Below are positions 9,016 to 23,556 of a DNA stretch of 64,000 nucleotides, one piece after another (within the stretch, counting starts at the first letter, position 1; each line of letters starts with the position of its first letter). The translations under genes were made by a program, and so were the position numbers. The stretch covers positions 1,910,637-1,974,636 of the forward strand of contig NZ_GL877879.1 of assembly GCF_000194155.1 (NCBI RefSeq), given 5' to 3'. The notes under the pieces were generated by a model. The model did no database searches. It was given only the letters and a program-made list of their open reading frames with translations, and was not told where the DNA came from. The DNA comes from Saccharopolyspora spinosa NRRL 18395 (GTDB taxonomy: Bacteria; Actinomycetota; Actinomycetes; Mycobacteriales; Pseudonocardiaceae).

Positions 9016-9666
9016 TCAACCCGCGACGAGCATCCGCTCGTCGTCGAGCAAGCCGTGGCGTATCGCGAACGACGCCGCCTCCAGCCTGGAGTGCACCCCG
9101 AGCTTGGTCAGCACCGACTGCACGTGCGTTCGCACCGTCGTCGGCGCCACCCCCAGTTGCTTGGCCATCGCCATCGTGTGCGCACCGTCGACGAGCAGCC
9201 GCAGGCATTGCCGCTCCCGCGCGGTCAGGTGCGACGCCAGCCGCAGGGCGTCCGTTGTACCGGCCAGGCGGGGCGCCCGCGAGGCCGCCAGCTCGACGAC
9301 GGCCTCGCCGTCCATGACCCCGCGGATCGCCCCGGCCAGCACCGACAGCCCGCACATCTTGTGCACGTACCCCGCCGCCCCCTTGGCCAGCGCATCGCGC
9401 ATGCCCCGGACATCACCGTCGGCGGTGAGCACCAGAAGCCTCGTTCTCCCGCCTGCGTTGAGGATCTCGCCGATCGCGTCCAGCCCGTCGTCATCGCCGA
9501 AGTAGCGGTCCAGCAGGCAGACGTCGGGCTGATGCTCCCGGACCGCCTCGACGACGCCTGCCACGTCGTGTGCGGTTCCCACGACGTGGCAACCGTGCCG
9601 TGGCAGCGTCGCGACCAGCGCATCGACGAAAATCACGTGATCGTCGCCGAGTACCAGATCGACCAT
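9016..9666 (-). CDS. NarL/LuxR-family response regulator
   Basis: A 216-residue two-component regulator. The receiver domain shows GDD near residues 7-9, the phosphoacceptor Asp near residue 53 in CLLDRYFGDDDG, and the conserved Lys in AAGYVHK. A C-terminal LuxR-type helix-turn-helix follows (LTARERQCLRLLVDGAHTMA, TVRTHVQSVLTKLGVHSRLE). I start at ATG 9666, where GGGGGG sits 9 bases upstream, not at the longer frame opening at 9963, which runs over the kinase gene. The gene lies 17 bp downstream of the kinase in the same direction, so the two form a cognate pair. The pair sits at the downstream end of the polysaccharide locus, which makes surface-polymer control a reasonable inference, but no target is shown. 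Confidence 0.88.
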   Translation of the reverse strand: MVDLVLGDDHVIFVDALVATLPRHGCHVVGTAHDVAGVVEAVREHQPDVCLLDRYFGDDDGLDAIGEILNAGGRTRLLVLTADGDVRGMRDALAKGAAGYVHKMCGLSVLAGAIRGVMDGEAVVELAASRAPRLAGTTDALRLASHLTARERQCLRLLVDGAHTMAMAKQLGVAPTTVRTHVQSVLTKLGVHSRLEAASFAIRHGLLDDERMLVAG

Positions 9667-9683
9667 GTTCTCGTTCCCCCCGC

Positions 9684-10340
9684 TCAGGCCGCGCAGCCGG
9701 ACGGGAACACCAGCACGGCACACGTGCCCCGGCATGGCTCCGAGTCGATCTGCAGGTCGGCCCCGCAGCGCTGCGCCAGCGCCAGCACGATGCCCAACCC
9801 GAGCGATGACGCGCCCTGCGGTCCGTCCCCGAAACCCGGCCCGTCGTCGGTGATCTCGATGCGCACCTCGCCGAGCTCGCCGCGGCGAACCGCCACGGCG
9901 ACCCGGCCGCCGCGCCCGGCGGCGCGCACCGCGTTGTCCAGCAGGTTCGACACCATCCGCCACAGCAGCGTCTGGTCGGTGCGCATCCAGACGTCCTCGT
10001 CGGTGTGCAGCGAAATCTCGGCCTGCCCGGCCAACGATTTCACCGCGACGAGCTGGGTCAGCAGTTCGCGCGGCGCGAAGAGCTCCTCGCTCGGCTGCCC
10101 GGCCCGCAGGGCCACCAGCTCAAGCAGCCGGTCCAGCTCCAGTTCCATCAGTTGCAGCCGGTGCGCCGCATCGCCGGGCAGCGCCGGGTCGCCGCGCAAC
10201 CCGTCCGCGAGATAGGACAGCGTCGCAAGACCGTGCCCGAGATCGTGCAGCAGGCTGTGCAACTCCGCGCCACCTCGCGAACCTGGGCCCCGCGTCCGCT
10301 GGTGTCCAGGCGCCCTCGCCGAATCGGTAATCGTGTGCAC
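9684..10340 (-). CDS. soluble histidine kinase without sensor domain
   Basis: A 218-residue histidine kinase whose H-box is LHSLLHDLGHGLATLSYL. The ATPase domain has an N-box (LLWRMVSNLLDNAVRAA), a G1 box (ITDDGPGFGDGP) and a later glycine-rich loop (SSLGLGIVLALAQRCGA). There is no transmembrane segment and hardly any sequence before the H-box, so the signal must come from a partner protein or the H-box helix itself. I use GTG 10340, preceded by GAGGAG at good spacing. It is 17 bp upstream of its response regulator and about 210 bp downstream of a glycosyltransferase gene of the polysaccharide locus. Confidence 0.83.
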   Translation of the reverse strand: MHTITDSARAPGHQRTRGPGSRGGAELHSLLHDLGHGLATLSYLADGLRGDPALPGDAAHRLQLMELELDRLLELVALRAGQPSEELFAPRELLTQLVAVKSLAGQAEISLHTDEDVWMRTDQTLLWRMVSNLLDNAVRAAGRGGRVAVAVRRGELGEVRIEITDDGPGFGDGPQGASSLGLGIVLALAQRCGADLQIDSEPCRGTCAVLVFPSGCAA

Positions 10341-10541
10341 CGCGACTCCTCTCCCCCAAAACAGCAGTCTGTGCCTACCCGGCAAATCGGATGCAGCGGG
10401 CGCGGCGTTGCACCTGCTACCCGAAGGGGACCTCGACTACTCCACGTGCAGCAGGCGTCCACACGACAGGCGCGGGGAAGTACTGTTCCTGCGGTAACCC
10501 CGCTACCGTCGGTCACTGACGGGCTACGCAGGATGTTCCGA

Positions 10542-10563
10542 AACCCGTTTTCAGGAACGGGTT
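10542..10563 (-). terminator. hairpin at the end of a GT4 gene
   Basis: AACCCGTT and AACGGGTT pair perfectly around a 6-base loop. The hairpin overlaps the last codons of the GT4 gene that stops at 10551. Its position fits a terminator for the minus-strand operon, but it lacks a T-tract and is short. Confidence 0.35.
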
Positions 10564-11678
10564 CCGTACACCCCGACGAGTGCGTCGGCCAGGGTCGAGG
10601 TCCGGTAGCGGTCGCCCAACCGGGAGCGGGCCGTCGTGGCGAGCCGGCCAGCGACGTCGGGTGAGTCCAGCAGGTGCGCCACCGCCGCGGCCAGCAGTTC
10701 GGGGCGCCGTGGCGGCACCAGCAGCCCGGTCTCACCGGGAGCGACCACATCGCTGACCGCGTTGACGGTGGTGGCCACCACCGGCACGCCGCACACCATC
10801 GCCTCGACGACGGCCAGCGGCAGGCCCTCGTACCGGCTGGGCAGCGCGAACACGTCGAATGCGGGCAGCAGTTCCGCGACGTCGTCGCGCTCGCCCGCGA
10901 GCACGACGCGAGCCCCGCTCGCGGCTATGCGCGAACGCATCCGCTCGGTCAGCTCTCCGCCGCCGATCCACACCCCGACCACGCCAGGTCGGTCCAGCAG
11001 GCACAGCGCCGTGACGAAGTCCTCCGGCGACTTCTGGAAGGTCAGCCGCCCCACCGCACCGACCACGACGTCCGTCGGTGCCAGCCCGAGCTCCTGCCGG
11101 GCGCGCTGCCTGGTCCGCTCGGTGCGCATCGGCACCTCGTGCTCGACGGCCACGCCGATGGTGCGGATGCGATCCGGGGCGATCAGCCCGCGCCGCAGCG
11201 CCTCGACCGCCACTCCGGTGCCCACGCACAGGGCGAGGTCGGTGATCCGCCCGAGGCCGCGTTCGATCTCGACGTAGCCGCGGCGACGCAACCCGCTCTG
11301 GAACTGGTGGAACGGAAACCCGTGGTAGGTGTGCACGATCCGGTCGACGCCAGCCCGGCGCGCAGAGATCCGGCCAACCGCACCCGCTTTCGAGCAGTGG
11401 GTGTGCACGACGTCGAAGCGGCGCCGTTTCAGCAACGCCGTCAGGCGGTGCAGGGCGAGCAGGTCGTGGCCCGGCGAGATGGGCGCGCGCAGCGCGGGCT
11501 CCACGATCACCTCCAGCCCGGCGGCTTCGGCTTCGGCCAGCAGCCGGCCGGACCCGGTGATCACCGCGACCTGGTGCGTGGCCGGATCAAGCGCCTTGGC
11601 CCCGCGCAGGGCCATCACCCCGGCGCCGCCTTCCAGGCGCGTGATCACCGTGGCCACCCGCAACGGCTCCGCGCTCAC
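10551..11678 (-). CDS. GT4-family glycosyltransferase
   Basis: A 375-residue GT-B glycosyltransferase that would transfer a sugar from a nucleotide donor to a lipid-linked or polymer acceptor at the inner membrane face. The N-terminal half opens with LRVATVITRLEGGAGVMALRG and has HTHCSKAGAVGR. The C-terminal half has VGAVGRLTFQKSPEDFV and the donor-binding segment RYEGLPLAVVEAMVCGVPVV with its EX7E-type glutamates. I start at GTG 11678, where the bases GTGA are shared with the stop of the upstream response regulator. That overlap indicates translational coupling of a regulator and a glycosyltransferase, which is unusual. The last codons overlap a small hairpin. Confidence 0.87.
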   Translation of the reverse strand: MSAEPLRVATVITRLEGGAGVMALRGAKALDPATHQVAVITGSGRLLAEAEAAGLEVIVEPALRAPISPGHDLLALHRLTALLKRRRFDVVHTHCSKAGAVGRISARRAGVDRIVHTYHGFPFHQFQSGLRRRGYVEIERGLGRITDLALCVGTGVAVEALRRGLIAPDRIRTIGVAVEHEVPMRTERTRQRARQELGLAPTDVVVGAVGRLTFQKSPEDFVTALCLLDRPGVVGVWIGGGELTERMRSRIAASGARVVLAGERDDVAELLPAFDVFALPSRYEGLPLAVVEAMVCGVPVVATTVNAVSDVVAPGETGLLVPPRRPELLAAAVAHLLDSPDVAGRLATTARSRLGDRYRTSTLADALVGVYGTRS

Positions 11679-12355
11679 CGCTCGCCGGTCCCGTCCGCTT
11701 CGCCGTCCGCGCGCAGTCCGGCGGCGCAAGCAACGCTGACCGCCTCCAGCTGGCTGTGCACCCGGAGCTTGGCGAGGATGCTGCGGGTGTGCGTGCGGAC
11801 GGTCTCGGTGGAGATCAGCAGTTCCTCGGCGATCTGCGCACCCCTCTTACCGGCGACCATGCCGGCGAGCACGTCCCGCTCGCGGTCGCTGAGCACGTCC
11901 AGCGGCCCGTTGCGCTGCCCCGCCCGCACGGCGTCCTCGCGCAGTCCGCGCAGCACGGCGCCGAGCAGTTCCGGCGGGTACCAGCTGTGCCCGCGGGGCA
12001 CCCCGCGCAGCACCTCGGTGAGACCCTCGACGCCGCGTTCCTTCGGTACCCAGGCCGCCGCACCGGCCCGTGCGGCGTCGACGGCCTGCCGAGCATCGCG
12101 GCTCCCGGTCAGCACCACGATTCCAGCGGCGGGGCGGACTTCCTGCAAGCGCCGCACCATGCGAGCGGCACCCACCGGTTCCACGTCGACCGTGATCACG
12201 TCCGGTCGGGACTGCCGCACCACGTCGGACAGTCGCGGGTCGCTGGTCTGGCAGTGCCCCACGACCCACAGGTCGGGCACCTCCGCCAGCCGAGCGCTGA
12301 GAGCCTCAGCCAGCATGAGGTGGTCGTCCACCATGAGCAGCCGCACCACGTCCAC
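11675..12355 (-). CDS. second NarL/LuxR-family response regulator
   Basis: A receiver plus LuxR helix-turn-helix regulator of 226 residues from GTG 12355. The receiver starts VDVVRLLMVDDHLMLAEAL; the phosphoacceptor Asp is near residue 57 in VITVDVEPVGAARM, and the conserved Lys is in AAWVPKE. The output domain is LSDRERDVLAGMVAGKRGAQI followed by TETVRTHTRSILAKLRVHSQLE. No kinase gene adjoins it directly; the soluble kinase 1.3 kb downstream could serve both regulators. The stop overlaps the start of the next glycosyltransferase (GTGA). The frame remains open upstream to 12610, but that part reads through a long palindrome and is unlikely to be coding. The exact start is uncertain because the ribosome site is weak. 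Confidence 0.82.
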   Translation of the reverse strand: MDVVRLLMVDDHLMLAEALSARLAEVPDLWVVGHCQTSDPRLSDVVRQSRPDVITVDVEPVGAARMVRRLQEVRPAAGIVVLTGSRDARQAVDAARAGAAAWVPKERGVEGLTEVLRGVPRGHSWYPPELLGAVLRGLREDAVRAGQRNGPLDVLSDRERDVLAGMVAGKRGAQIAEELLISTETVRTHTRSILAKLRVHSQLEAVSVACAAGLRADGEADGTGER

Positions 12356-12464
12356 AGCCCCAGCTTGAGGCCATCGGGTCGACGAGACCTCCCCCAGCTG
12401 CACGAGAACACCCTCCCGCGTGAAGCGCACCTTTGCCCCGTCTGCGTCTGCCTCCACGGATTTC

Positions 12465-12510
12465 CGCAATTTCCATTGAAATCGAATCTTCGATTTCAAT
12501 GGAAATTGCG
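12465..12510. terminator. perfect AT-rich 22-bp inverted repeat
   Basis: Arms 12465-12486 and 12489-12510 are exact complements separated by TC; the inner part reads CATTGAAATCGAA. Arm composition is far more AT-rich than the surroundings. It lies between the GT2 stop and the second response regulator. It could end the polysaccharide transcript or attenuate the regulator and GT4 genes downstream. Confidence 0.6.
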
Positions 12511-12550
12511 ACACCACTGCTCCGGGCGGCCTTGGAATGAGGCGTTGAGG

Positions 12551-12580
12551 AACTCCGTGGAACTCCGTGGAACTTCGTGG
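12551..12580. repeat. 10-bp tandem repeat, three copies
   Basis: AACTCCGTGG occurs twice and AACTTCGTGG once, head to tail, in the gap between GT2 and the downstream response regulator. The period matches one DNA turn. Confidence 0.7.
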
Positions 12581-12590
12581 ATGCCCTCTC

Positions 12591-12652
12591 CCACTAGGTC
12601 GGGCCCCCACTCGGTCGGGCCCTCACTCGGTCGGGCCTTCACTTGGTCGGGG
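12591..12652. repeat. 16-bp tandem repeat, about four copies, reaching the GT2 stop codon
   Basis: Units of the type CCACTCGGTCGGGCCC begin at 12591, 12607, 12623 and 12639. The last, partial unit contains the stop codon and final residues of GT2 (PTK end). The array may have grown from the coding end outward. Confidence 0.75.
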
Positions 12653-14006
12653 TCGTGCGCGGGGTGACGGGCGCGTCGATGGTGCGGCGGCCGGGGCTGC
12701 GCCACCGTCCAGAGGACTTCGACAGCCACGCCGCCGGTATCGCGTACAGCGCGATACCCGCGTCAAGCACTCGTAGCGCCAGGAAGAAGCATGCGAACAG
12801 CAGGAACCTCGGCTGCCGCTGCAACACCGCGACTATGCACGTCAGCACCAGATCCGGGACCACCACACCGAAGAACAGCGCTGGCAGCGTCGCGAAACCG
12901 GCGACGAAGTCGTGTACGTCGTCCACGACCGGCACCGCGAGCAACCCGTCGAACAGCAGGGGCACGATCAGCGCCAGCGCCACGAAGGGCAACAGCACCA
13001 GCATGAAGCTGCTCGCCAGCATCTCCAACAGCAGCAACGCCAGCATCAGGCTGAACAGGTTGGCCCGCGGCGGGTGCAGCCGGACCGTCTGCCACAGGCC
13101 GAGCGACCAGCGCTTGCACTGCTTCACGTAGTCCTTGAAGTTGCCCGGGTCCTGGGTGGCCGCCACCGCCGACGGCGTGAAACCGACCTTCCCGAGCCGT
13201 TTCTGGTACACCTCGAAGGTCATGTTGAAGTCCTCGATGACCAGCCCCGGCGGGTTGACCTCGATGCGTGGCAGCACCTCGGCGCGGTACATGCTGGCGA
13301 AGCCGGGCACGATGTGGGTGGCGTTGATCCGCCGCCACGTCTGGCCGAACTTCATCAGGTACTGAGTCATGGTGTAGATCCGCTGCCGGTGGAAGGCCAC
13401 CAGCTTGCCGATCGGCCCGAGCGCGCGGTCCCGCCATGACGTCCTGACGCAGCCCGCCACCGCGACGACCGCGGGATCGTCGAACAGCGGCAGCGCCGCC
13501 CGGAAGTAGCCGGGCTCGACGTGCGTGTCGGCGTCCAGCAGCATCACGACCTCGAAGCGATCGACGAGACCGAACCGGCGGATCGCCTCCTGCAGCGCGC
13601 CGGCCTTGCCGACGTTGCGCGCCGTGCTGATCACGTGCACCCCGCACGCTTCCGCGAGTTCCACCGTGCGGTCGGTCGAGCCGTCGGAGACCACGTGCAC
13701 GTTCTCCGGCGGCACGAGGGCGGTGATCGCCTGGATGCTGTCGACGATGACGCGTTCCTCGTTGTGGGCCGGCATCAGCACCGCCACGTCCTCGACGCCC
13801 ACCCGCGTAGTTCGGTCGTGGCCGTGCTGCCGGTCCCGGCCGACCACGACGCGCTGGCCGGACACCGACGTCGCGCCCCGTTGCTGCCACCAGCGCCGCG
13901 TCGAGGAGTCGAGCAGGCGCATCAGCCCGATCAAGCCCCATAGTGTGAAGTTGGTGCCGAACACGGCGATGGCCAGCACCCACCAAGGAATCATCCCGCT
14001 CTCCAA
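12639..14006 (-). CDS. membrane processive GT2 glycosyltransferase
   Basis: A 455-residue membrane glycosyltransferase of the cellulose/hyaluronan/poly-N-acetylglucosamine synthase type. One N-terminal helix (WWVLAIAVFGTNFTLWGLIG) precedes the catalytic domain. That domain has PAHNEERVI, SDGSTDRT, the DAD metal site in MLLDADTHVEPGYF, the base motif in VIEDFNM and QCKRW, which corresponds to QxxRW. C-terminal helices lie at about residues 310-430 and would form the translocation channel. It is 22 bp downstream of a membrane GH18 gene. A deacetylase is encoded upstream in the locus, so a partly deacetylated beta-linked amino-sugar polymer is a plausible product. The polymer identity is inference. 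Confidence 0.88.
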   Translation of the reverse strand: MESGMIPWWVLAIAVFGTNFTLWGLIGLMRLLDSSTRRWWQQRGATSVSGQRVVVGRDRQHGHDRTTRVGVEDVAVLMPAHNEERVIVDSIQAITALVPPENVHVVSDGSTDRTVELAEACGVHVISTARNVGKAGALQEAIRRFGLVDRFEVVMLLDADTHVEPGYFRAALPLFDDPAVVAVAGCVRTSWRDRALGPIGKLVAFHRQRIYTMTQYLMKFGQTWRRINATHIVPGFASMYRAEVLPRIEVNPPGLVIEDFNMTFEVYQKRLGKVGFTPSAVAATQDPGNFKDYVKQCKRWSLGLWQTVRLHPPRANLFSLMLALLLLEMLASSFMLVLLPFVALALIVPLLFDGLLAVPVVDDVHDFVAGFATLPALFFGVVVPDLVLTCIVAVLQRQPRFLLFACFFLALRVLDAGIALYAIPAAWLSKSSGRWRSPGRRTIDAPVTPRTTPTK

Positions 14007-14028
14007 AGTAGACGAGTCGCTTACGGTG

Positions 14029-15237
14029 TCATTGCGCGTCGTCGAGCGGCAGGGTCTGCCGCAGCTCCCGCCACGTTTCGGTGTCTTCGTAGCCGAACAT
14101 CCACAGGTAGACGCCGCGGATGCCGGAGCCGCGCGCCGCCTCGAACTTCGCCTTGGAGCTGGCGGCGTTCTCGAACCACACCTCGTGCTCCCGCCCCTGC
14201 TCGTCGGTGTAGCGGAACCACGGCGACTGCGTCAGCCCGTCGTAGTTGGCCTTCGCCCGGTGCTGGGTGGACAGGCGGAACGCCTGCAGCCAGGTCACCG
14301 CGGTGCCGTTGCCATCCACCCAGTCGTAGCCGTACAGCGGCACGCCGAGCACGATTCGCTCCGGCGGGATCTGGGTCTTGGCGTAGTTCAGCGTTTCCCG
14401 GACCCAGGTGATCGGCGCGACCGGGCCGGGCGGCGAGGTGCCCCAGTGGTAGTCGTAGCCCATCAGCCGGACCTCGTCGGCCGCCCTGCCGATCGCGGCG
14501 TAGTCCTGCGCCACGTTGCGCTCGTCGTATCCGGCGTCGGAGGCCTTCGCGAACACCGCCACCGCCAGCGTCTTCCCCTCATCATCCAGGGCCTTTCCCA
14601 GTTCGGTGATGAAGTCGGTGAAGACCTGCCGGTCGCCGGCGCGCAGGTTCTCGTAGTCGATGTCGATGCCCGAGTAGTCCTCGCGCTTGACGAGCTCGAC
14701 GATCTCGTCGATGTGGGAGCGCCGCTTCGCCGGGTCGTGCAGCATCTTGGCAACCGGTTCGTAAGCCCATTTGCCGTCGGTGATGTTCGCCAGCGACGGC
14801 ACGATCGGGATGCCCGCCGCGCGCAGCTGCCCGATCTGCCTGCCGACCTCGGCGGCCTGCTCATGCGGGTACTGGTTGGCCAGCCGGCCGTCCTGGCTCA
14901 GCCCGTAGATCCAGGGCGAGACCTCGTTGACCGCCTGCCGGTTCTGGGCCACCATCGACGTGCCGTTGTTGAGGTTCCAGAACGGTAGTGATGCGACGGC
15001 CAGCGAACCGGGCTGCGGTGGTCCCCCGCCGCGCGGCATCAGCGTCATCACGACGAGCACCACCGCCACCGCGATCAGCGCCAGGAACCAGATCGACCCG
15101 CCCAGCCGGCTGACGGTCCGGACCCGGCCCGCGGGGGTGTCCGATGTGGATGGTCGGGATCCGCGGGGCGATCGCGCGGTCGCCGCGGGCCGAGCCCAGT
15201 CCATGAGCCGGCGCATCGTATCGGTCTTCTGCCCCAT
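14029..15237 (-). CDS. membrane-anchored GH18 glycosidase
   Basis: A 402-residue protein with a cytoplasmic N-terminus, one membrane anchor at about residues 48-68 (SIWFLALIAVAVVLVVMTLM) and an extracytoplasmic GH18 barrel. The catalytic signature DxxDxDxE reads YSGIDIDYEN with the acid Glu near residue 196. Downstream GYDYHW and GVPLYGYDW are typical of the YaaH/spore-cortex-type branch of GH18. Such enzymes cleave beta-1,4 N-acetylglucosamine bonds with substrate assistance. It sits 22 bp before GT2 and 15 bp after the epimerase, so it probably edits or releases the polymer made by the locus rather than feeding on chitin. Confidence 0.87.
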   Translation of the reverse strand: MGQKTDTMRRLMDWARPAATARSPRGSRPSTSDTPAGRVRTVSRLGGSIWFLALIAVAVVLVVMTLMPRGGGPPQPGSLAVASLPFWNLNNGTSMVAQNRQAVNEVSPWIYGLSQDGRLANQYPHEQAAEVGRQIGQLRAAGIPIVPSLANITDGKWAYEPVAKMLHDPAKRRSHIDEIVELVKREDYSGIDIDYENLRAGDRQVFTDFITELGKALDDEGKTLAVAVFAKASDAGYDERNVAQDYAAIGRAADEVRLMGYDYHWGTSPPGPVAPITWVRETLNYAKTQIPPERIVLGVPLYGYDWVDGNGTAVTWLQAFRLSTQHRAKANYDGLTQSPWFRYTDEQGREHEVWFENAASSKAKFEAARGSGIRGVYLWMFGYEDTETWRELRQTLPLDDAQ

Positions 15238-15252
15238 GTCGCCCTCCGCACC

Positions 15253-16227
15253 TCAAGCCGTCACGGGTTGTCCGGCTCGCACCTGCTCGTCGATCACATC
15301 GCGGATGATGTCGTCGAGCGTGCGCTCCGGCCGGAAATCGATCAGCTCGCGCGCGCGGGAGCAGTCCGGGACGCGACGTTGCAGGTCCTCGTACCCCGGC
15401 CCGTACGCCTCCTCGTAGGGGACCTGGATGGTGCCGCTGGACGAGTCGGTCATCGCGATGATCCGGGCGGCGAGCTCCTCGATGGACACCTGCTCGGTGT
15501 TGCCGAGGTTGACCGCCATGCCCTGCGCCCGGTCCAGCAGCGCCAGCCGCACCAGCGCGGGCACCGCGTCGGCGACGTGGCAGAAGCAGCGGATCTGCTT
15601 GCCGGTGCCGAAGATCGTCACCGGCCGGCCCTGCAGCGCCTGCGCGACCAGCCGCGGGATGACCATGCCGTACCGGCCGCTCTGCCGCGGCCCGACGGTG
15701 TTGAACAACCGCACGATGACCGCCCTGAGGCCGAGCTCCCGCACGTAGTTGTGGGTGATGCTCTCGTCGATGGCCTTGGCCTCGGAATAGGTCCAGCGCG
15801 ATTTCAGCGGCGAGCCGATGATCCGGTCGTCGCCCTCGGAAAGCCCGACCTTGTCGTTCTTGCCGTAGATCTCGCTGGTGGAGGCGACCAGCACCCGCGC
15901 GTCGTGCCGCAGGGCGGCGTCCAGCACGTTCTCGGTGCCGTGGATGTTTGTCAGCAGCCCCTGCAGGGTGTGTTCCTGGATGACGAACGCGCCGACGGCG
16001 GCGGCCAGGTGGAACACCACGTCCGCGTCGGCCATCACCTCGTCGACCAGGGCCCCGTCCAGGATGCTGCCCTGCACCATCCGCAGGTTCCGATCGCTGA
16101 CCGGGAGGTTCTCGACACGCCCGGTGCTCAGGTCGTCGAGCCCGACCACCTGGTGGCCGTCCGCGAGCAGCCGTTCGACCAGGTGGGATCCGATGAAACC
16201 GGCTGCGCCGGTGACCATTGCGCGCAT
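15253..16227 (-). CDS. NAD-dependent sugar epimerase/dehydratase (extended SDR)
   Basis: A 324-residue nucleotide-sugar SDR. It starts MRAMVTGAAGFIGSHLVERL with the GxxGxxG dinucleotide motif. The active site has STSEIYG followed by the YxxxK pair near residues 147-151 in WTYSEAKAIDES. The ATG at 16227 shares one base with the previous stop (TGATG) and has GGGAGG before it. The layout resembles UDP-glucuronate decarboxylase and UDP-glucose 4-epimerase relatives. A sugar dehydrogenase is encoded in the same operon, so a UDP-uronate is a plausible substrate. Sequence alone does not separate epimerase from decarboxylase. Confidence 0.85.
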   Translation of the reverse strand: MRAMVTGAAGFIGSHLVERLLADGHQVVGLDDLSTGRVENLPVSDRNLRMVQGSILDGALVDEVMADADVVFHLAAAVGAFVIQEHTLQGLLTNIHGTENVLDAALRHDARVLVASTSEIYGKNDKVGLSEGDDRIIGSPLKSRWTYSEAKAIDESITHNYVRELGLRAVIVRLFNTVGPRQSGRYGMVIPRLVAQALQGRPVTIFGTGKQIRCFCHVADAVPALVRLALLDRAQGMAVNLGNTEQVSIEELAARIIAMTDSSSGTIQVPYEEAYGPGYEDLQRRVPDCSRARELIDFRPERTLDDIIRDVIDEQVRAGQPVTA

Positions 16228-17339
16228 CACGACCTCCCCACCGGCACGGCGCCGCCGCGCCGCTGCCACAGCCGCGCGTACAGGTCGTCGATGCGGTCGG
16301 TGACCGCCTCGATACCGTAGGCCCGGCGGATCGCGGGCTCGTCGGCGCGCGGCCGGGCGGCCAGGATCTCGGAGGCGATCTCCGCGCGCATCCGCTCCGC
16401 GTTACCGGCCACCTGGCGGGCCCGGTCGGTCTCGATGCCGATCAGCGCCGGGCAGGTGGTGTAGAGCACCGGGATGCCGTTGGCCATCGCCTCCAGCACG
16501 GACAGGCCGAAGGTCTCCTGCTCGGAGGAGGCGATGAACAGGTCCAGCGCGGACAGCATCGCGGCGACGTCGTGCCGCTGCCCGGCGAAGATCACGTGCT
16601 CGGCGACGCCGTGCTCGCGGGCCACCGCCTCCAGCCGCGCCCGGTCCGGCCCGTCGCCGACGATCAGCAGCTTGGTCTCCTGGCCCAGCATCGGGGCCAT
16701 CGAGTCGATCACCAGGTTGAAGCGCTTGTTCGGGTCCAGGCGACCGAGCACGCCGACCACGTAGGCCTGGTCGCTGATCCCGTGCTCGCGGCGCACCCGG
16801 GCGCGCGCGGCCCCGTCGAACTCGACCCGGCCGAAGTCGACGCCGTTGGGGATGACGGTGATCTTGCGCGCGGGCATGCCCCAATTGCGCAACCGCTCCG
16901 CGACGGTTTCGGAAACCGCGATGGTGGCGTCCGAGCACAGGTCGGTGCCCAGGTAGAGCGCCCGGACTCCGAGGGTCATGCGCCGGCGCTCCAGGTGGGT
17001 TTCGCCGATGGAGTGCTCGGTGGAGACCACCACCTTGGTGCCGGCCAGCCGGGCCGCGAGCCGCCCGTACACGCAAGCCCGGTACAGGTGGGTGTGCACC
17101 ACGTCGTAGCGGCCTTCGCGGATCACGTCACGCAGCCGCAGCATGGCGCCGACCTGGGTGTTGCGGGTCATGCCGAGGTCGCGCACCCGCACCCCGTCGC
17201 CGTTGATCATCTGGGCCACGTCACCTGGGTTGTACAGCGAAACCACGTCGGAGTCGTGCTTGGTGTGCTGCAGGATCGACCGCAGCTGCAGCTCGGCGCC
17301 GCCGACACCGAGCCCGGTGATCACGTGCAATACCTTCAT
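16227..17339 (-). CDS. GT4-family glycosyltransferase
   Basis: A 370-residue GT-B enzyme that opens MKVLHVITGLGVGGAELQL, where GGAE is the usual acceptor-side loop. The donor domain carries VIPNGVDFGRVEF, GRLDPNKRFNLVIDS and SEQETFGLSVLEAMANGIPV with the two conserved glutamates. ATG 17339 is chosen over ATG 17351 because GGGGGA lies just upstream. The stop overlaps the epimerase start by one base. It probably adds a later sugar to the lipid-linked repeat unit begun by the phosphosugar transferase encoded immediately upstream. Confidence 0.88.
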   Translation of the reverse strand: MKVLHVITGLGVGGAELQLRSILQHTKHDSDVVSLYNPGDVAQMINGDGVRVRDLGMTRNTQVGAMLRLRDVIREGRYDVVHTHLYRACVYGRLAARLAGTKVVVSTEHSIGETHLERRRMTLGVRALYLGTDLCSDATIAVSETVAERLRNWGMPARKITVIPNGVDFGRVEFDGAARARVRREHGISDQAYVVGVLGRLDPNKRFNLVIDSMAPMLGQETKLLIVGDGPDRARLEAVAREHGVAEHVIFAGQRHDVAAMLSALDLFIASSEQETFGLSVLEAMANGIPVLYTTCPALIGIETDRARQVAGNAERMRAEIASEILAARPRADEPAIRRAYGIEAVTDRIDDLYARLWQRRGGAVPVGRS

Positions 17340-17364
17340 TGCTTCCCCCATTTGGTCTTCCGGG

Positions 17365-18699
17365 TCATTTCTCGCAGCGGCGCGGGCGTTGGCGTCGGGT
17401 TCCGGCCGCCCGCAGGACGATCGCGGCCGTGCGGGCCACGATCACGGCGTCCCACCACGGCGACCAGTACTCGATGTACTGGTTGTCGAACCGCGCCCGG
17501 TCCGGGATGGACGTGTCGCCGTGCAGGCCCTGCACCTGCGCCCAGCCGGTCATTCCGCCGCGCATCCGGTGCCGGTCGGCGTAGCGCGGGATCTCCCGCC
17601 CGAACCGCACCGCGTAGTACGGCCGCTCCGGGCGGGGCCCGACCAGCGACATGTCGCCGCGCAGTACGTTGACCAGCTGCGGCAGCTCGTCGAGGTGCGT
17701 GCCGCGCAGCCAGCGTCCGAGCGCGGTGCACTGGTCGGCGGTCACCGACCAGTGCTGCCCCAGGTCGCCGTTGACGGTGCGGAGCTTGACGACCTCGCTG
17801 GTCCGCCCGGTCCGCGTCACGCGCAGCTGGCGGAAGAACGTCCTGCCGCCACCGCTGAGCGCGACCAGCGCGGCCAGTACCAGCAGCAGCGGTCCCGACA
17901 CCAACAACATCAGTCCGCTGAGGACTACATCGGAAGCGCGCTTGACCAGCGCGCCCGCGCGACTGTGACCGAAGCGGCGCAGCGGGATCAGCGGCACGCC
18001 CCAGATCTCGTCCATGCTGGCGCGCGGCAACGCCATGCCCAGCTCGTGCAGCCGGGGCACGACGCAGACATCCGCCAGCAGCGGGCGGCAAACGCGGACC
18101 AAGGCGACCAGGTACGAGTCGTCTGAGCACACGATCACCCGGGTGATGCGCTGCGCGGCAAGGATTTCCGCCAACCCGCTCGGCTGGGTGAGCAACCGGG
18201 GCCGCAGCCCGAACTCGGGATGGTCGGCCGCCAGCTCGGCGACTTCCCCGGCCAGCGCGTCGGATCCGACGATCAGCGTCGGCTCGTTGAGCAGCCCGCG
18301 CCGATACCCGCCGCGCAGCACCGAGTACAGGCCACCGCGAGCCACGAGCAGGCCGGCCAACCCTGAGACGCCCATCAGGAGCAGCGCATCGCCGGAGTGC
18401 CACGGCAGCAGCAGCACCAGCGGTGCACCGGCCGCGACCGCGAGCTGCGGCAGCTGGTCCGACACCCGCAGGCAAATCCGCAGCCGGTGCTGGCCCTGCG
18501 CGGCCAGCACCACGAGCGCCGCCAGCGCGAAACCCGCGCCGAACAGCCAGTGCACGCCGACCACCGGGATCAGCACCACCAGCACTGCGATGTCGACGGC
18601 TGGCAGCAACCAGCCCCCGACCTGCCGCCGCACCCGCAGCCCGTGGCCGCTCGCGGCGAGCGGCCACGGCTGCGCCACGGCGGGTTCGGTCACGCTCAT
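17365..18699 (-). CDS. polyprenyl-phosphate sugar-1-phosphate transferase (initiating enzyme)
   Basis: A 444-residue long-form phosphoglycosyltransferase that starts surface-polymer repeat units by placing a sugar-1-phosphate on undecaprenyl or decaprenyl phosphate. The N-terminal part has several hydrophobic segments (LLPAVDIAVLVVLIPVVGV and others), then a nucleotide-fold region. The conserved C-terminal catalytic domain begins KRASDVVLSGLMLLVSG and contains RGTHLDELPQLVNVLRGDMS, VGPRPE and GMTGWAQVQGL. The ATG at 18699 overlaps the stop of the flavoprotein gene (ATGA). Its presence shows that the locus builds a lipid-linked heteropolymer in addition to any product of the processive GT2. 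Confidence 0.92.
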   Translation of the reverse strand: MSVTEPAVAQPWPLAASGHGLRVRRQVGGWLLPAVDIAVLVVLIPVVGVHWLFGAGFALAALVVLAAQGQHRLRICLRVSDQLPQLAVAAGAPLVLLLPWHSGDALLLMGVSGLAGLLVARGGLYSVLRGGYRRGLLNEPTLIVGSDALAGEVAELAADHPEFGLRPRLLTQPSGLAEILAAQRITRVIVCSDDSYLVALVRVCRPLLADVCVVPRLHELGMALPRASMDEIWGVPLIPLRRFGHSRAGALVKRASDVVLSGLMLLVSGPLLLVLAALVALSGGGRTFFRQLRVTRTGRTSEVVKLRTVNGDLGQHWSVTADQCTALGRWLRGTHLDELPQLVNVLRGDMSLVGPRPERPYYAVRFGREIPRYADRHRMRGGMTGWAQVQGLHGDTSIPDRARFDNQYIEYWSPWWDAVIVARTAAIVLRAAGTRRQRPRRCEK

Positions 18700-19919
18700 C
18701 CGGCACCCCCGACGACCACCGGCCGCGCCGTGGTCGCGTCGATCCGGGCGGTCATCATCCGAACCGCGTAGTCGGCGCCGTAGACGAACCGCATGACCGG
18801 CCCGTGGCTCGGTGCCACCAGCGGCCCGGCGAAGTACAGGCCCGGCACCGACGACTCGAAGTCCTTGCCGACGCGCGGCGTTCCGTCGATCGTGCGGATG
18901 GCCGACCGCAGCCCGGCCGACAGCATCGGCAGCCGGGTGATCTCCGGCGGGTAGCCGGTGGCGCAGATGACGTGGTCCGCGGTGAACTCGCGGACCTCGC
19001 CGCCGACGTGCACCCCGAGCCGCACCTGATCGCCGGTGGCCTTTGCCCAGTCCAGCCGGTGCCCGACGTGCACCGGGAAGCGGCCCTCGACCCGCTCACG
19101 CAGCCACCAGCCTCCGGCCGGTCCGAGCGCGGTGCGCGCCCGGTAGATCCTGGTCGCCCTGGGCAGGTGCCGGAACACCTTCGGGTGCTCGGAGTAGAAC
19201 CAGGTGGACAGCCCCGAACCGAGCCCGGCCTCCGGCTCGCGCATCCGGCTCCACAGCGGACGATCCGGGAGCAGCGGTTTCCCGTTCCACGCGATGCTCG
19301 GCGCGCGCGCAACCAGCCGCGCGTTGGCGCCGTTCTCGTACAGCAGCGCCGCAGTCTCCAGCGCGGACTGCCCGGCACCCACGACGATCACGTCCTGACC
19401 GTCGAAGGAGCTCAGGTCGTCGTGCACCGAGCTGTGTGTGCAAAGCTCGGCAGGCAGTTCGGAGAACACCCCCGGGATCCGCGCGAAGTACTCGACACCG
19501 ACCGCGACCACCACCTGGCTCGCCTCGACGCGCTCCCCGCTGCTCAACGTCAGCTCGAACCGGCCCGGCCGCTGCTCGATGTCGGAGACCAGCTCCTCCT
19601 CCACGTCGAGGCCGCGGCCCTGCTGGAACCACTCGCCGTAGTCAACGAAGTTCTCCAGCGACACCGGCACGCCGTAGTCCGCGTAGCGGCGCCCGGTCTC
19701 CAGGCAGAAGTTGCGCAGCGTGTGCGTGCCGTCCGGGTCGGACAGGTTCGAGGCGAAGCCCTGCGACTTCAGGTACATGCCGCGCGGCATGTGGGCGCGC
19801 CACAGGTTCATCGGCAACCCGAACTGCCGGTAGGACAGGCCGGCCCGGCGCAGGTGCGCCGCCAGCGACAGGCCGTAGGGCCCGGCACCGACGATGGCAA
19901 CGTCAACGAGATCGCTCAT
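18696..19919 (-). CDS. FAD-dependent NAD(P)-binding oxidoreductase/monooxygenase-like
   Basis: A 407-residue flavoprotein. The N-terminal FAD motif is DVAIVGAGPYGLSLAAHL, the second dinucleotide site is VIVVGAGQSALETAALL and a late ATGYPPEI matches the flavin-monooxygenase-type ATG motif. The start at ATG 19919 has GAGGAG upstream and overlaps the ATP-grasp stop (ATGA). The stop in turn overlaps the next gene. This double overlap ties it to a ligase and an initiating sugar transferase, an odd place for a monooxygenase-type enzyme. Possible roles are N- or C-oxidation of a sugar or of an amino-acid substituent. The reaction is unknown. Confidence 0.82.
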   Translation of the reverse strand: MSDLVDVAIVGAGPYGLSLAAHLRRAGLSYRQFGLPMNLWRAHMPRGMYLKSQGFASNLSDPDGTHTLRNFCLETGRRYADYGVPVSLENFVDYGEWFQQGRGLDVEEELVSDIEQRPGRFELTLSSGERVEASQVVVAVGVEYFARIPGVFSELPAELCTHSSVHDDLSSFDGQDVIVVGAGQSALETAALLYENGANARLVARAPSIAWNGKPLLPDRPLWSRMREPEAGLGSGLSTWFYSEHPKVFRHLPRATRIYRARTALGPAGGWWLRERVEGRFPVHVGHRLDWAKATGDQVRLGVHVGGEVREFTADHVICATGYPPEITRLPMLSAGLRSAIRTIDGTPRVGKDFESSVPGLYFAGPLVAPSHGPVMRFVYGADYAVRMMTARIDATTARPVVVGGAG

Positions 19920-21238
19920 CTGCACTCCTCGAACAGCCGCTTGCGGCGGCGTCTGATCGGTTTCCCCAGGGCGTGATTGCGCCCCGGGACGTACTGGGGC
20001 TCGGCGAGCGCTGGATGTCGGGTGCGGCGGTGCAACGGCAACGGCCGGGCAACCGCGCGGCAGACCATCCAGAGGCACATCAGGACGAACGGCAGCAGGT
20101 CGTCGCGGGCGAACCAGGCAGTCTCGTCCACGCCGCGCATCGACGACGCCCAGGACCGCAACCCCAGTTCGCCGCGGCACAAATACCGCAGCGCCGCGAT
20201 CGGGTCGTAGTTCTCCACCAGGAACCGCCGGCCAACCGGTTGCCGGCCCGCCGGGACCTCCTGCCCCGTGAGGTCCAGGTAGGACGCGAGCGCGACGTCC
20301 ACGCCCGCGTCGTCGCGGAACAACCGGAACTGGGCGCCCAGCCGCGGGTTGAAGTCCAGCAGCTTGTAGCGCCGGTCGCGGGCGTCCCACCGGAAATCGA
20401 GGTCCACGATGCCGCTGAACGCCAACTGCTCCAGCAGCTTCGCGGATTCCTTCAGCAGAGCCTCGTTCTCCACGCAGCGCCCGAGGCTGGTCAGCCCCGC
20501 GTGCGCGGGATAGGAGCGCTCCTTGACGCCGGTGAAGGCCGGGCGACACACCGACGCGGCGTCGCAGTAGCCGTGGAAGAACCAGTCGTGCCCCGGCCCG
20601 CCCGGGATGAACTCCTGCAGCATCAGGCCACCGACGGCGGCGTCCCCGCAGCGGCCGTAGAGCTCGGCCAGCTCCTCCTCATCGCGGACGATCGTGGTGC
20701 TGCGCACCCCGCCCGGCGCCCCGAGCCACGGCGCGGAAAGCTTCGCCACCAGCGGATACCCCACCTCGTCCGCGAATTCCAACGCCTCGTCCCACGCGCC
20801 GATCAGCGTCGCCTCCGCGCACGGCACGTCCAGTCGGCGGCACAACTGGAACATCGAGTACTTCCCGGCCAATTGGCGCGGAAGATCGCGGGCCGGCTGG
20901 GCGAACCGGAAGTACGGCCGCAGCGGGTCACCGTGCTCGGCCAGGAAGATCGCGGCCGCGTCGTCGGTGGGGATCAGCACCGACGGCCGGCCGATCCGAT
21001 CGGCCAGCTGCGCGAGCCCGTCGCGGATCCGGTCGGTCTCCGCCGGATCCGGGCTCCACAGCCAACGCCCGCGCAGGTAGCGGGAATGCGCGGCCGGGGC
21101 CAGGGAATCCTCTTGCACGGCGTACACCGGCACCCCGACCCGGCCGAGGCTGCGGATCACCCCGAGTCCGCCGTGGTGCATGACATTTGGATCGAGTTTG
21201 AACACCACCGCGGGCGTGGACGTGTCGAAGGGGAGCAT
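19916..21238 (-). CDS. ATP-grasp carboxylate-amine ligase-like protein
   Basis: A 440-residue ATP-grasp enzyme. ATP-grasp features are KYSMFQLCRRLDVPCAEA at the start of the domain, YPLVAKLSAP (first ATP Lys), MLQEFIPGG, and the metal-binding end FSGIVDLDFRWD with LLDFNPRLGAQF. Family members join a carboxylate to an amine, or less often a thiol, using ATP. The N-terminal Rossmann part begins AVVFKLDPNVMHHGGLGVIRS. ATG 21238 is preferred because GAGGGG is 9 bases upstream; a longer frame reaching 21739 overlaps the dehydrogenase gene. It lies 13 bp after the sugar dehydrogenase. If that enzyme makes a uronic acid, this ligase could amidate it with an amino acid. That is inference. Confidence 0.85.
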   Translation of the reverse strand: MLPFDTSTPAVVFKLDPNVMHHGGLGVIRSLGRVGVPVYAVQEDSLAPAAHSRYLRGRWLWSPDPAETDRIRDGLAQLADRIGRPSVLIPTDDAAAIFLAEHGDPLRPYFRFAQPARDLPRQLAGKYSMFQLCRRLDVPCAEATLIGAWDEALEFADEVGYPLVAKLSAPWLGAPGGVRSTTIVRDEEELAELYGRCGDAAVGGLMLQEFIPGGPGHDWFFHGYCDAASVCRPAFTGVKERSYPAHAGLTSLGRCVENEALLKESAKLLEQLAFSGIVDLDFRWDARDRRYKLLDFNPRLGAQFRLFRDDAGVDVALASYLDLTGQEVPAGRQPVGRRFLVENYDPIAALRYLCRGELGLRSWASSMRGVDETAWFARDDLLPFVLMCLWMVCRAVARPLPLHRRTRHPALAEPQYVPGRNHALGKPIRRRRKRLFEECR

Positions 21239-21251
21239 CGGCGCCATCCCC

Positions 21252-22598
21252 TCACAGCACGCGCCGGTGCGGCACGGCGTCGAACTGGTAGGTCGCGTCG
21301 AGCACCTGCGGGCAGTCCCGCGCCCAGCCGTAGTCGACGCCGGGGTGCAAGGTGTGCAGCACGGTGACGTCCCAGTCCCGGCCGCGCGGCGCCGGCTCGC
21401 TGACCATCCGGGTGCCGTCGGCCAGGGTGATCTCCGGCAGCAGCGGGTCGAAGTAGTGCACGGCGATCCCGATCCGGCGCAGCCCGGCGAGGATCGGCAG
21501 CGCCGGGGACTCACGGAGGTCCCGCACACCCGCCTTGTAGCTGACCCCGGCGACCACCACCCGGGCCCCGGAGTGGTCGATACCCGCGTCGCCGAGCATC
21601 TCCACCACGCGCTGCACCACCTGGCCGGGCCGCTGGTCGATCGAGCGCATCGCCTGTTCGATGACCGGCGCCGAGACGCCTTCCCGCCGCAGCTGCCACA
21701 ACAGGTAGTACGGGTCGCACGGGATGCAGTGCCCGCCAACCCCGGGCCCCGGGAAGCTGCCCAGGAACCCGTACGGCTTGGTCCCGGCCGCGATGGTCAC
21801 CTCGATCGGGTCCAGTCCGAGCACCGAGCACGCGTCGGCCATCTCGTTGGCCAGTGCAAGGTTCACCGCGCGGAAGATGTTCTCGTAGAGCTTGGTCAGT
21901 TCGGCAGCCTCCGGCGAGCTCACCAGGTACACCGAATCGGTCATCCGCGACACGACCTCGGCGGCCCGATCGGCGCACCGCGGTGTGACGCCTCCGACGA
22001 CGCGCGGAGTCTCCCGTTGCACGTGGTCGAAGTTGCCGGGGTCGATGCGCTCCGGGCTGAACGCGACGTGCACGTCGGTGCCCACTCGCATGCCCCGCTG
22101 CTCCAGCGGCTCGACCAGCAGCTGCCGGGTGGTGCCCGCGAAAGTCGTCGAGGTCAGGATGATCGTCTGACCGCGGCGGGCGAACGCGACGACGGTCTCG
22201 CAGGCCGCCCGCAAGGCGGTCAGGTCCGGCTGGTGCGCGGTGTCGACCGGCGTCGGCACGCACACGATCACCGCGTCCGCGCCGGCGAGCACCGACGGAT
22301 CGCAGGACAGCTGTAGGTCGCCGGCGGCCAGTGAAGCAGTCAATGCGCGCCGCTCCAGCTCGGGCATGTCCACCTCGCCGGCCTTGATGGCCTGCAAGCG
22401 GTCCTCGCTGATGTCGAAGCCGATGACCTGAGCCGTCGGCGACTGCAGCGCGCACGCGGTGGGCAATCCCACGTAGCCCAACCCGACGACGACCACCGAT
22501 TCGGTGCGTTCGGGCATCCTCGGCTCGAACGCGATCAGCCGGTCCGCCAACAGGCGTTCCCGGCCGTTGACCGCCAACGCAAGCGGATGTTCAGTCAC
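21252..22598 (-). CDS. UDP-sugar 6-dehydrogenase (UDP-glucose/GlcNAc/ManNAc dehydrogenase family)
   Basis: A 448-residue NAD-dependent nucleotide-sugar dehydrogenase that oxidises C6 of a UDP-sugar twice to give a uronic acid. It has an N-terminal VVVVGLGYVGLPTACAL dinucleotide motif, STTFAGTT, the ELTKLYENIFRAVNLALANE helix and the catalytic Cys near residue 291 in GVGGHCIPCDPYYL. VGGHCIP with KPYGF nearby favours the WecC/WbpA type (UDP-N-acetyl sugars) over plain UDP-glucose dehydrogenase. GTG 22598 follows GGAGGAACC. It is the first gene of the tightly packed operon that continues to GT2. Confidence 0.9.
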   Translation of the reverse strand: MTEHPLALAVNGRERLLADRLIAFEPRMPERTESVVVVGLGYVGLPTACALQSPTAQVIGFDISEDRLQAIKAGEVDMPELERRALTASLAAGDLQLSCDPSVLAGADAVIVCVPTPVDTAHQPDLTALRAACETVVAFARRGQTIILTSTTFAGTTRQLLVEPLEQRGMRVGTDVHVAFSPERIDPGNFDHVQRETPRVVGGVTPRCADRAAEVVSRMTDSVYLVSSPEAAELTKLYENIFRAVNLALANEMADACSVLGLDPIEVTIAAGTKPYGFLGSFPGPGVGGHCIPCDPYYLLWQLRREGVSAPVIEQAMRSIDQRPGQVVQRVVEMLGDAGIDHSGARVVVAGVSYKAGVRDLRESPALPILAGLRRIGIAVHYFDPLLPEITLADGTRMVSEPAPRGRDWDVTVLHTLHPGVDYGWARDCPQVLDATYQFDAVPHRRVL

Positions 22599-22736
22599 GG
22601 TTCCTCCCCCAGTTCGCCGTGCTCAAAGCACTCTCGCACCTTGTTACCGACCGGTTCTCCCACAGCGGGGGGAGCGCGCTTACCGAATCCTGACGAGTCC
22701 CGCGGATCAGTCCGGCGCAGCGGCGCGGAAACATGA

Positions 22737-22796
22737 CGAATTCGCGCGAAATCGCAGTACCCGTCACCGGATTGGGGGCGATTTCACGCGAATTCG
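22737..22796 (-). terminator. 19-bp hairpin between deacetylase and dehydrogenase genes
   Basis: Arm CGAATTCGCGCGAAATCGC (22737-22755) pairs with 22778-22796 with one G-U-type mismatch around a 22-base loop. It lies 20 bp after the deacetylase stop, so it may end that transcript and separate it from the operon beginning at 22598. It shares its core with the palindrome at 8904-8931. Confidence 0.6.
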
Positions 22797-22815
22797 ACGT
22801 TTCGCGCGCGAACCT

Positions 22816-23556
22816 CTAGCGCTTGATCTTCAGCTCGTGGCGCAGTCGCTTGGCCAGCAGTCGCAGCGAGCCGTCCCGGTCCCCCACGTAGGTGCGTGGC
22901 AGGGCGTGCCGACTGGACAGCGGCGAACGCCAGATCGCGCAGGCGTAGTCGTACCCGGCCGCCTCGACCGTGTTCATCACCCGCAGGTCGACATCGCCGT
23001 ACGGGTAGCAGAATCCGCTCACGTCCTGGCCGGTGAGTTCGCTCAGCAGCTCCCGGCTCTCGGCCACCTCTACGATCAGCTCGCCATCGTCCAATTCGGA
23101 CATCCGCTGGTGCAGCATCCCGTGCGAGCCGACCTCCATCCCCGCGTCGGCGACCTCGCGGATCTCCTCGGAAGTCAACAACCGCTTGCGCGGGCCATCG
23201 GCGTCCCAGGCATTGTGCCCGCCGGGCCGCCCGGCGATCACGAAAACGGTCGCGGTGCAGCCGTGCTTCAACAGCGCTGGCTGTACATTGTGGACGAAAT
23301 CCGTGTAGCCGTCATCGAAGGTCAAGCCGACCAAACCACGTCCACCCCCGGTCCGGCGCGCCTGCATCAGCTCGCGCATCGACACCCCGCGCAGCCCGTT
23401 GCGGCGCAACCAGCGCAGCTGGCGGTCGAAGCGCTGCGGATCGACGGTCACCAGGTACGGATCGCGGGCATAGGTGGCCACCGAGTGGTACATCAACACG
23501 TACGGGAACGGACGTTCGGTACCGGTCCGGACCCAATTGCTAACGGTCTGCGTCAT
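22816..23556 (-). CDS. polysaccharide deacetylase (NodB domain, CE4)
   Basis: A 246-residue NodB-fold metal-dependent deacetylase. Motif 1 is LTFDDGYTDF, motif 2 is the metal-binding SHGMLH with two histidines, and motif 3 is FCYPYGDVD. An early VLMYHSVA precedes the fold, as in PgaB/IcaB-type proteins. No clear signal peptide is seen, so it either acts inside the cell or leaves by another route. ATG 23556 is used although its GAGGAAAG is about 10 bases away. It is the first gene of the polysaccharide locus and would remove acetyl groups from N-acetylhexosamines. Confidence 0.88.
   Translation of the reverse strand: MTQTVSNWVRTGTERPFPYVLMYHSVATYARDPYLVTVDPQRFDRQLRWLRRNGLRGVSMRELMQARRTGGGRGLVGLTFDDGYTDFVHNVQPALLKHGCTATVFVIAGRPGGHNAWDADGPRKRLLTSEEIREVADAGMEVGSHGMLHQRMSELDDGELIVEVAESRELLSELTGQDVSGFCYPYGDVDLRVMNTVEAAGYDYACAIWRSPLSSRHALPRTYVGDRDGSLRLLAKRLRHELKIKR

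Follow-up and report, generated by a model that had tools for sequence, protein, structure and literature searches.

How does an actinomycete locus that apparently encodes enzymes for a lipid-linked glycan, along with a processive-type synthase, bring its product to the cell surface without a flippase or polymerase of its own, and what might it make? We consider this for thirteen minus-strand genes at positions 9016–23556 of a 64,000-nucleotide stretch (the window) of the Saccharopolyspora spinosa NRRL 18395 genome (8.58 Mb, 22 contigs). A preliminary description of this DNA had read these genes as a composite surface-polysaccharide locus with its own regulators, in which a lipid-linked route (dehydrogenase, epimerase, phosphosugar transferase, and two GT4 glycosyltransferases) stands beside a processive-polymer route (GT2 synthase, GH18 glycosidase, and deacetylase). 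All thirteen genes are present by Pfam and NCBIfam matches, with every named family as described except for the "epimerase", and mapping of the modules across relatives likewise upholds the composite nature of the locus, although its parts divide differently. The locus is a real, conserved, composite variant of known polysaccharide systems, joining a core module and a GT2 cassette, with an unexplained tailoring pair. This pair, a flavoprotein and an ATP-grasp enzyme, is its most unusual part, and had figured in the preliminary description only within a search set.

A core module and an exchangeable cassette

The core module comprises a CE4 polysaccharide deacetylase (22816–23556), an ATP-grasp enzyme (19916–21238, start near 21238), a flavoprotein resembling N-hydroxylating monooxygenases (18696–19919, start near 19919), a polyprenyl-phosphate sugar-1-phosphate transferase (17365–18699), and the GT4 glycosyltransferase GT4a (16227–17351), and it is also found without the cassette. 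The cassette comprises a nucleoside diphosphate (NDP)-sugar 6-dehydrogenase (21252–22598), a UXS-like NAD-dependent enzyme (the former "epimerase", 15253–16227), a GH18 glycosidase with an N-terminal transmembrane (TM) segment (14029–15237), and a processive-type GT2 synthase (12639–14006). A further block holds a NarL/LuxR-type response regulator, RR1 (11675–12349), a second GT4 glycosyltransferase, GT4b (10551–11663), a soluble histidine-kinase-like protein, HK (9684–10385), and a second NarL/LuxR-type regulator, RR2 (9016–9666), where the starts of RR1, GT4b, and RR2 are approximate.

We mapped these families, with hidden Markov models (HMMs) built here and hand-set score limits, over 53 loci: 38 (L045–L082) from a scan of named genomes with an ATP-grasp alignment, and 15 (L147–L161) of the 48 places from a class-wide scan, hand-picked to spread over families and scores. 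Each stretch extends about 10 kb from the ATP-grasp gene, or to the end of its contig, which makes absences weaker than presences. All four cassette genes are present in 20 of the 53 loci and none in 32; in the remaining one (L054), whose contig ends inside the flavoprotein gene, the dehydrogenase is the only cassette gene. The dehydrogenase and UXS-like enzyme, earlier placed in the lipid-linked route, thus travel with the GT2 and GH18 genes. In all 20 cassette loci the core is represented by the deacetylase, the transferase, GT4a, and the flavoprotein, and the full set of nine genes from deacetylase to GT2 is found in 20/53 loci. Among the 32 loci without the cassette, the deacetylase is kept in 20, the transferase in 17, GT4a in 22, and the flavoprotein in 28, which places the deacetylase in the core and not, as had been proposed, in the processive-polymer route. 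We note that a free-standing cassette would have been missed, because the core ATP-grasp gene was the entry point to all of the loci.

Three chain-building machines occur near the core genes: the GT2/GH18 cassette (20 loci), Wzy with a MurJ-type flippase (11), and PelF (5). No two occur together in the 53 loci, and Wzy, MurJ, and PelF are all absent from the 20 cassette loci. In the other 17 loci (16 of the 32 without the cassette, and L054), no machine was identified. Pfam confirms Wzy_C in L147 and L153 (68–73 bits), MurJ in L150 and L153 (186–203 bits), and both in L074, where the flavoprotein was not found; PelF is confirmed by NCBIfam in L060, L061, and L066 (164–171 bits), and the machine labels of the other Wzy, MurJ, and PelF loci rest on HMMs built from the confirmed ones. 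On a tree of 52 ATP-grasp rows, which excludes L082 and L160 (below the tree score limit) and on which the rows nearest to the window are from Saccharopolyspora shandongensis and S. elongata, the machine labels are clustered but changing. The starred branches force at least three changes for GT2, at least three for PelF, and at least two for Wzy, and L053, a GT2 locus, falls among the PelF loci. Fifteen rows are labeled NA, as no machine was seen in them, and this in itself adds changes; fine detail is unsure because of the long branches of L074, L079, and L153, and three changes may represent one gain and two losses. By this comparison, the GT2 cassette is swappable between species. Polysaccharide systems are usually sorted by their assembly machine, whereas here one tailoring gene set occurs with three machines, which points to separate evolution of decoration and chain building.

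Some of these loci hold further genes of interest. Proteins with 9–11 TM segments are encoded beside PelF (L060:15781–17274, L061:19347–20777, and L066:10716–12158); we had expected PelG, an identity that we rejected, as no Pfam or NCBIfam model matches. A 681-residue protein precedes PelF at L061:15837–17882, without a Pfam or NCBIfam match, and in a Wzy-type locus (L151:7139–8803) a berberine-bridge-type FAD oxidase (PF01565, PF08031) adjoins the flavoprotein gene. A 14.7 kb contig (L155, genome G165) carries an ATP-grasp gene (641 bits) together with regulators and a weak match of deacetylase type, but neither the flavoprotein nor any cassette gene was found on it.

The gene set is more than a chance arrangement, given its order in two further stretches, which were left out of the 53 loci and the tree. 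In L034 (genome G062, another genus), which is probably the same record as L063 (Actinopolyspora xinjiangensis), twelve genes stand in the same order and the kinase between GT4b and RR2 is missing, while in L035 (genome G104) the first ten genes are kept before the fetched stretch ends. Together with the 20 cassette loci, these show that the set is not exclusive to this genome. Among 150 genomes of the order, 56 contain an ATP-grasp match at E ≤ 0.001, but only three of them, this genome and two of the same family, have one below 1e-100. The 38 loci of the named-genome scan, which missed relatives because only two peptide patterns were used, lie in Saccharopolyspora (11), Actinopolyspora (6), Halopolyspora, Lentzea, Amycolatopsis, Micromonospora, Actinocatenispora, Catenulispora, Actinomycetospora, Kitasatospora, and metagenome-assembled genomes. 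Across 394 genomes of the class, the ATP-grasp enzyme (E ≤ 1e-30) was found in at least 42, the flavoprotein (E ≤ 1e-40) in at least 41, and both in at least 38, and in the phylum the flavoprotein (E ≤ 1e-60) was found in at least 6 of 296 genomes, these counts being lower limits because four to six candidates were scored per genome. A plasmid search with the ATP-grasp enzyme returned two Bradyrhizobium records at 31% identity, and a scan of viral contigs with the phosphosugar transferase found no relative.

Export and the proposed pathway

In the window, HMMs built here gave no match at E ≤ 10 to Wzy, MurJ, or the membrane protein that neighbors PelF, in line with the earlier statement that no flippase or polymerase is encoded locally. 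No search by name was aimed at ABC (ATP-binding cassette) exporters or Wzc-type kinases; in a crude gene prediction over the whole window, three or more TM segments occur in three proteins only, namely the GT2 synthase, the sugar transferase, and a distant GT87-family protein. The lack of a flippase is a feature of this particular version, because 11 of the 53 core relatives carry Wzy and a MurJ-family flippase. The genome as a whole has no match to PF01943 (Wzx) at E ≤ 0.001, a family that 13 of 14 control genomes contain. Outside the window it has four matches of interest, three to the MurJ family and one to Wzy_C, and two of them lie in stretches that encode further sugar transferases. These two stretches, left out of the 53 loci and the tree, are other likely polysaccharide regions: one (L162) has a MurJ-family protein, a sugar transferase, and a dehydrogenase, and the other (L163) has Wzy_C and a sugar transferase.

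For the substrates, the order of steps, the export route, and control, the model that we favor, while giving it a little less than an even chance, has the two modules in one locus produce a lipid-linked, decorated core glycan and a GT2-made chain. The phosphosugar transferase would load an amino sugar onto the polyprenyl carrier, and GT4a (and GT4b) would lengthen the lipid-linked sugar. The CE4 enzyme would strip an N-acetyl group in the cytosol, and the ATP-grasp enzyme and the N-hydroxylase-like flavoprotein would alter an amine by amide-bond formation and N-oxidation, in either order. The dehydrogenase and UXS-like enzyme would make a uronate- or pentose-type uridine diphosphate (UDP)-sugar, which the GT2 synthase would polymerize and extrude, and the anchored GH18 enzyme would trim the chain outside the cell. 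The decorated lipid-linked glycan would serve as the primer or linkage unit for GT2, and because of this no Wzx/Wzy pair would be needed. Control of the locus would fall to both response regulators and the soluble kinase.

The distant MurJ-family and Wzy_C matches allow another answer, in which the core glycan is flipped and polymerized in trans by those proteins and the GT2/GH18 polymer is an independent second product. The occurrence of Wzy with MurJ near the core genes in 11 of the 53 loci also fits this. However, the cassette genes of the window form part of a tight run with core genes: in the eight genes from dehydrogenase to GT2, neighbors overlap or are at most 22 bases apart, and these genes therefore look like one operon, set apart from the deacetylase and the regulator block by gaps of about 217 and 289 bases. 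Moreover, all 20 cassette loci hold the core (though they were sampled via its ATP-grasp gene), and the stretch with one of the MurJ genes, L162, has its own sugar transferase and dehydrogenase. We thus consider two separate products rather unlikely. Scans of the window for promoters (0 sites, 0.9 expected from shuffles) and terminators (1 site, 4.0 expected) found no excess.

The enzymes of the core route match the families named above. The deacetylase matches PF01522 (93.7 bits), and among 42 sequences the CE4 motifs TFDDG, HxxxH, and the third motif are present in 42, 39, and 40; all our motif counts include the window and cover sequences above 150 bits (100 for the transferase), with, in some families, one paralogue from the same genome. 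This deacetylase has no TM segment by crude hydropathy, with no signal-peptide program applied, and is probably cytosolic, judging from its sequence. A phosphosugar transferase of the type found in Wzx/Wzy loci is present (PF02397, 174.9 bits, on 17365–18699), and an overlapping reading frame at 17336–18706, considered for the same role, was rejected as it matches nothing. Our motif patterns for this enzyme proved too strict (20, then 30, of 40 sequences), and no claim is built on them. GT4a matches PF00534 (96.2 bits) and PF13439 (91.1 bits), and GT4b matches PF00534 (107.7 bits); the two score 41.7 and 34.4 bits on the NCBIfam PelF model, below its cut-off of 100, and they are the only window genes matched by our own PelF HMM (59.5 and 28.8 bits).

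For the cassette sugar, the dehydrogenase (TIGR03026, 361 bits) is nearest to UDP-N-acetylmannosamine dehydrogenases among solved chains (4r16, 190 bits; Cap5O, 177 bits), with CalS8 at 177 bits and the UDP-glucose dehydrogenase 3vtf at 102 bits. The label "epimerase" does not hold for its partner: the UDP-glucuronate decarboxylase UXS1 (4lk3, 168 bits) is the top match among 94 solved sequences at E ≤ 1e-10, and the two share the TSE motif and an Arg-x-Pro-Asp stretch, while the best NCBIfam model, LegB, scores 165 bits, under its cut-off of 475. The RRxPD motif, whose arginine has a role in UXS enzymes, occurs in 21/21 cassette copies vs 0/4 PelF-locus copies above the score limit. The enzyme may decarboxylate UDP-glucuronate (UDP-GlcA), or alternatively UDP-GlcNAcA, and from these likenesses a UDP-pentose or UDP-XylNAc is a likely cassette product. 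A Bordetella b-Cool paper reached through UDP-XylNAc was not used as a source of homologues.

Finally, the cassette could instead serve a spore- or wall-associated secondary polymer, in which GT2 would transfer sugars to a lipid carrier but extrude no chain processively, and GH18 would act on peptidoglycan rather than on the polymer. The GH18 enzyme (PF00704, 109 bits) is indeed closest to YdhD (3cz8, 175 bits), YaaH (4s3k, 149 bits), and a cortical-lytic enzyme (4s3j, 142 bits), named sporulation or germination proteins; it has the catalytic motif DxD[YFW]E in 21/21 copies and one N-terminal TM segment. The GT2 enzyme has no solved relative at E ≤ 1e-4 and scores 68.8 bits on the PgaC_IcaA model, far under the cut-off of 422.3. 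Against a secondary polymer, each of the processive motifs D, DxD, ED, and QxxRW is present in 21/21 GT2 copies, hydropathy gives this protein five TM segments, and GH18 accompanies GT2 in 20 of 20 cassette loci, and we regard this reading as very unlikely.

The flavoprotein and ATP-grasp pair

The predicted flavoprotein model has the full-length fold of N-hydroxylating monooxygenases, and its nearest folds are, by a small margin, siderophore-type amine N-hydroxylases. The FAD motif, the GxGQ[SA]A NADPH motif, and the ATGY/F motif each occur in 49/50 sequences, the misses being L160 (the first motif) and the contig-cut L054 (the other two). The protein resembles DesB, PvdA, and KtzI, which are hydroxamate siderophore N-hydroxylases, in overall fold, FAD/NADPH motifs, and ATGY motif, but an invariant Lys is aligned to a Gln of SsDesB, and the window-type flavoprotein sits mostly in glycan-type loci. 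In one local HMM alignment, Lys51 (27/27 sequences; Ser57, 24/27) faces this Gln; ornithine hydroxylases use a flavin-side Gln and a substrate Lys. We infer that the flavoprotein is a putative amine N-hydroxylase. The ATP-grasp enzyme is predicted to have the ATP-grasp fold and its catalytic site, with structure matches to carboxylases as well as ligases that single out no one reaction, and we take it to be a putative carboxylate-amine ligase. Should both assignments hold, the core could make a metal-binding, siderophore-like surface glycan bearing hydroxylamine or hydroxamate groups, as a portable unit that actinomycetes join to three machines. The deacetylase would expose a sugar amine (or an amino acid would supply the amine), the flavoprotein would oxidize it, and the ATP-grasp enzyme would form the amide. 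We consider this extension of our model unlikely as it stands. The open literature, to which most subscription papers do not belong, gave us no role for such a pair in surface glycans and no paper joining an N-hydroxylating monooxygenase with an ATP-grasp enzyme; through this pair, a new kind of actinomycete glycan modification could be tested directly by genetics.

Several observations weigh against a purely glycan role. L148 and L157 carry the pair away from recognized glycan genes, and L156 so carries the ATP-grasp gene, with no flavoprotein beside it; apart from these genes, the core HMMs had no match in the three loci, all from one genome family (f33). Ten of their neighbors, not all, were scanned, giving three fumarylacetoacetases (one per locus), six members of families unrelated to glycans, and one protein without a match. 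In the Catenulispora loci the core deacetylase and transferase were not found, and 7 of the 48 ATP-grasp places have no flavoprotein listed within 3 kb. The regulator block was seen unevenly: of the 20 cassette loci, 15 have RR1, 16 GT4b, 9 HK, and 2 RR2, counts that are lowered in part by the ends of the stretches. The regulators claimed as the locus's own do accompany it in many relatives and may control it. RR1 matches PF00196 (63.9 bits) and PF00072 (32.6 bits), RR2 matches the same families (60.2 and 58.4 bits), and the kinase matches PF02518 (HATPase, 57.1 bits) and lacks a TM segment by hydropathy.

The product of the pair could instead be a small, diffusible compound (an amide or an N-hydroxy compound), with the position in glycan loci either incidental or serving to supply a side group in trans. 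The fumarylacetoacetase-linked loci L148, L156, and L157 fit this, as do the siderophore-type N-hydroxylases nearest to the flavoprotein. We rate it as quite unlikely, since the deacetylase, flavoprotein, and ATP-grasp genes stand together in 40 of the 53 loci; in the class-scan list, the flavoprotein lies within 3 kb of 41 of the 48 ATP-grasp genes.

Described systems and surroundings of the locus

The statement that no actinomycete system with this gene set has been described stands as far as the open literature goes, most subscription papers falling outside the search, and the comparisons below draw on the accessible parts of the papers cited. MatAB, the Streptomyces poly-N-acetylglucosamine (PNAG) locus, in which MatB joins a GT2 to an extracellular CE4 domain, is likewise an actinomycete surface-polymer locus with a CE4 domain and a PgaC-like GT2; here, by contrast, the CE4 enzyme is separate and without a TM segment by hydropathy, and the locus adds GH18, NDP-sugar enzymes, ATP-grasp, flavoprotein, and phosphosugar transferase (PMC5972031). 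PelF, as in Gram-positive Pel clusters, occurs in the core-type loci L060, L061, L062, L064, and L066, but the window GT4s fall under the PelF cut-off, and "ATP-grasp" does not appear in the main text on those clusters (PMC7112168). The wps clusters of Actinoplanes missouriensis are of Wzx/Wzy type and also concern an actinomycete surface polysaccharide, with a polysaccharide deacetylase in wps-3. Unlike the window, wps-1 to wps-3 have local Wzx and Wzy, as well as Wzz; the wps-3 monooxygenase is of the PheA/TfdB family, and neither main text contains "ATP-grasp" (PMC13390465, PMC12691653). We checked the Actinoplanes wps, gsf, and imp clusters as possible earlier descriptions of this locus and found that they differ (PMC13390465, PMC12691653). 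A pneumococcal set under joint Rgg/SHP regulation resembles the locus in three products (UDP-ManNAcA dehydrogenase, de-N-acetylase, and carboxylate-amine ligase), by listed names and not by protein comparison, but is from another phylum and has no N-hydroxylase-like flavoprotein among the listed rows (PMC5597970).

Scans of the window for tRNA genes and Rfam families gave no match. A thiamine-pyrophosphate enzyme on the plus strand (7357–8901) adjoins the locus, transposase genes of the DDE_Tnp_1 and IS66 families lie at 28064–28990 and 52194–53639, and the GT87-family membrane glycosyltransferase, distant from the locus, is encoded at 61692–63005.

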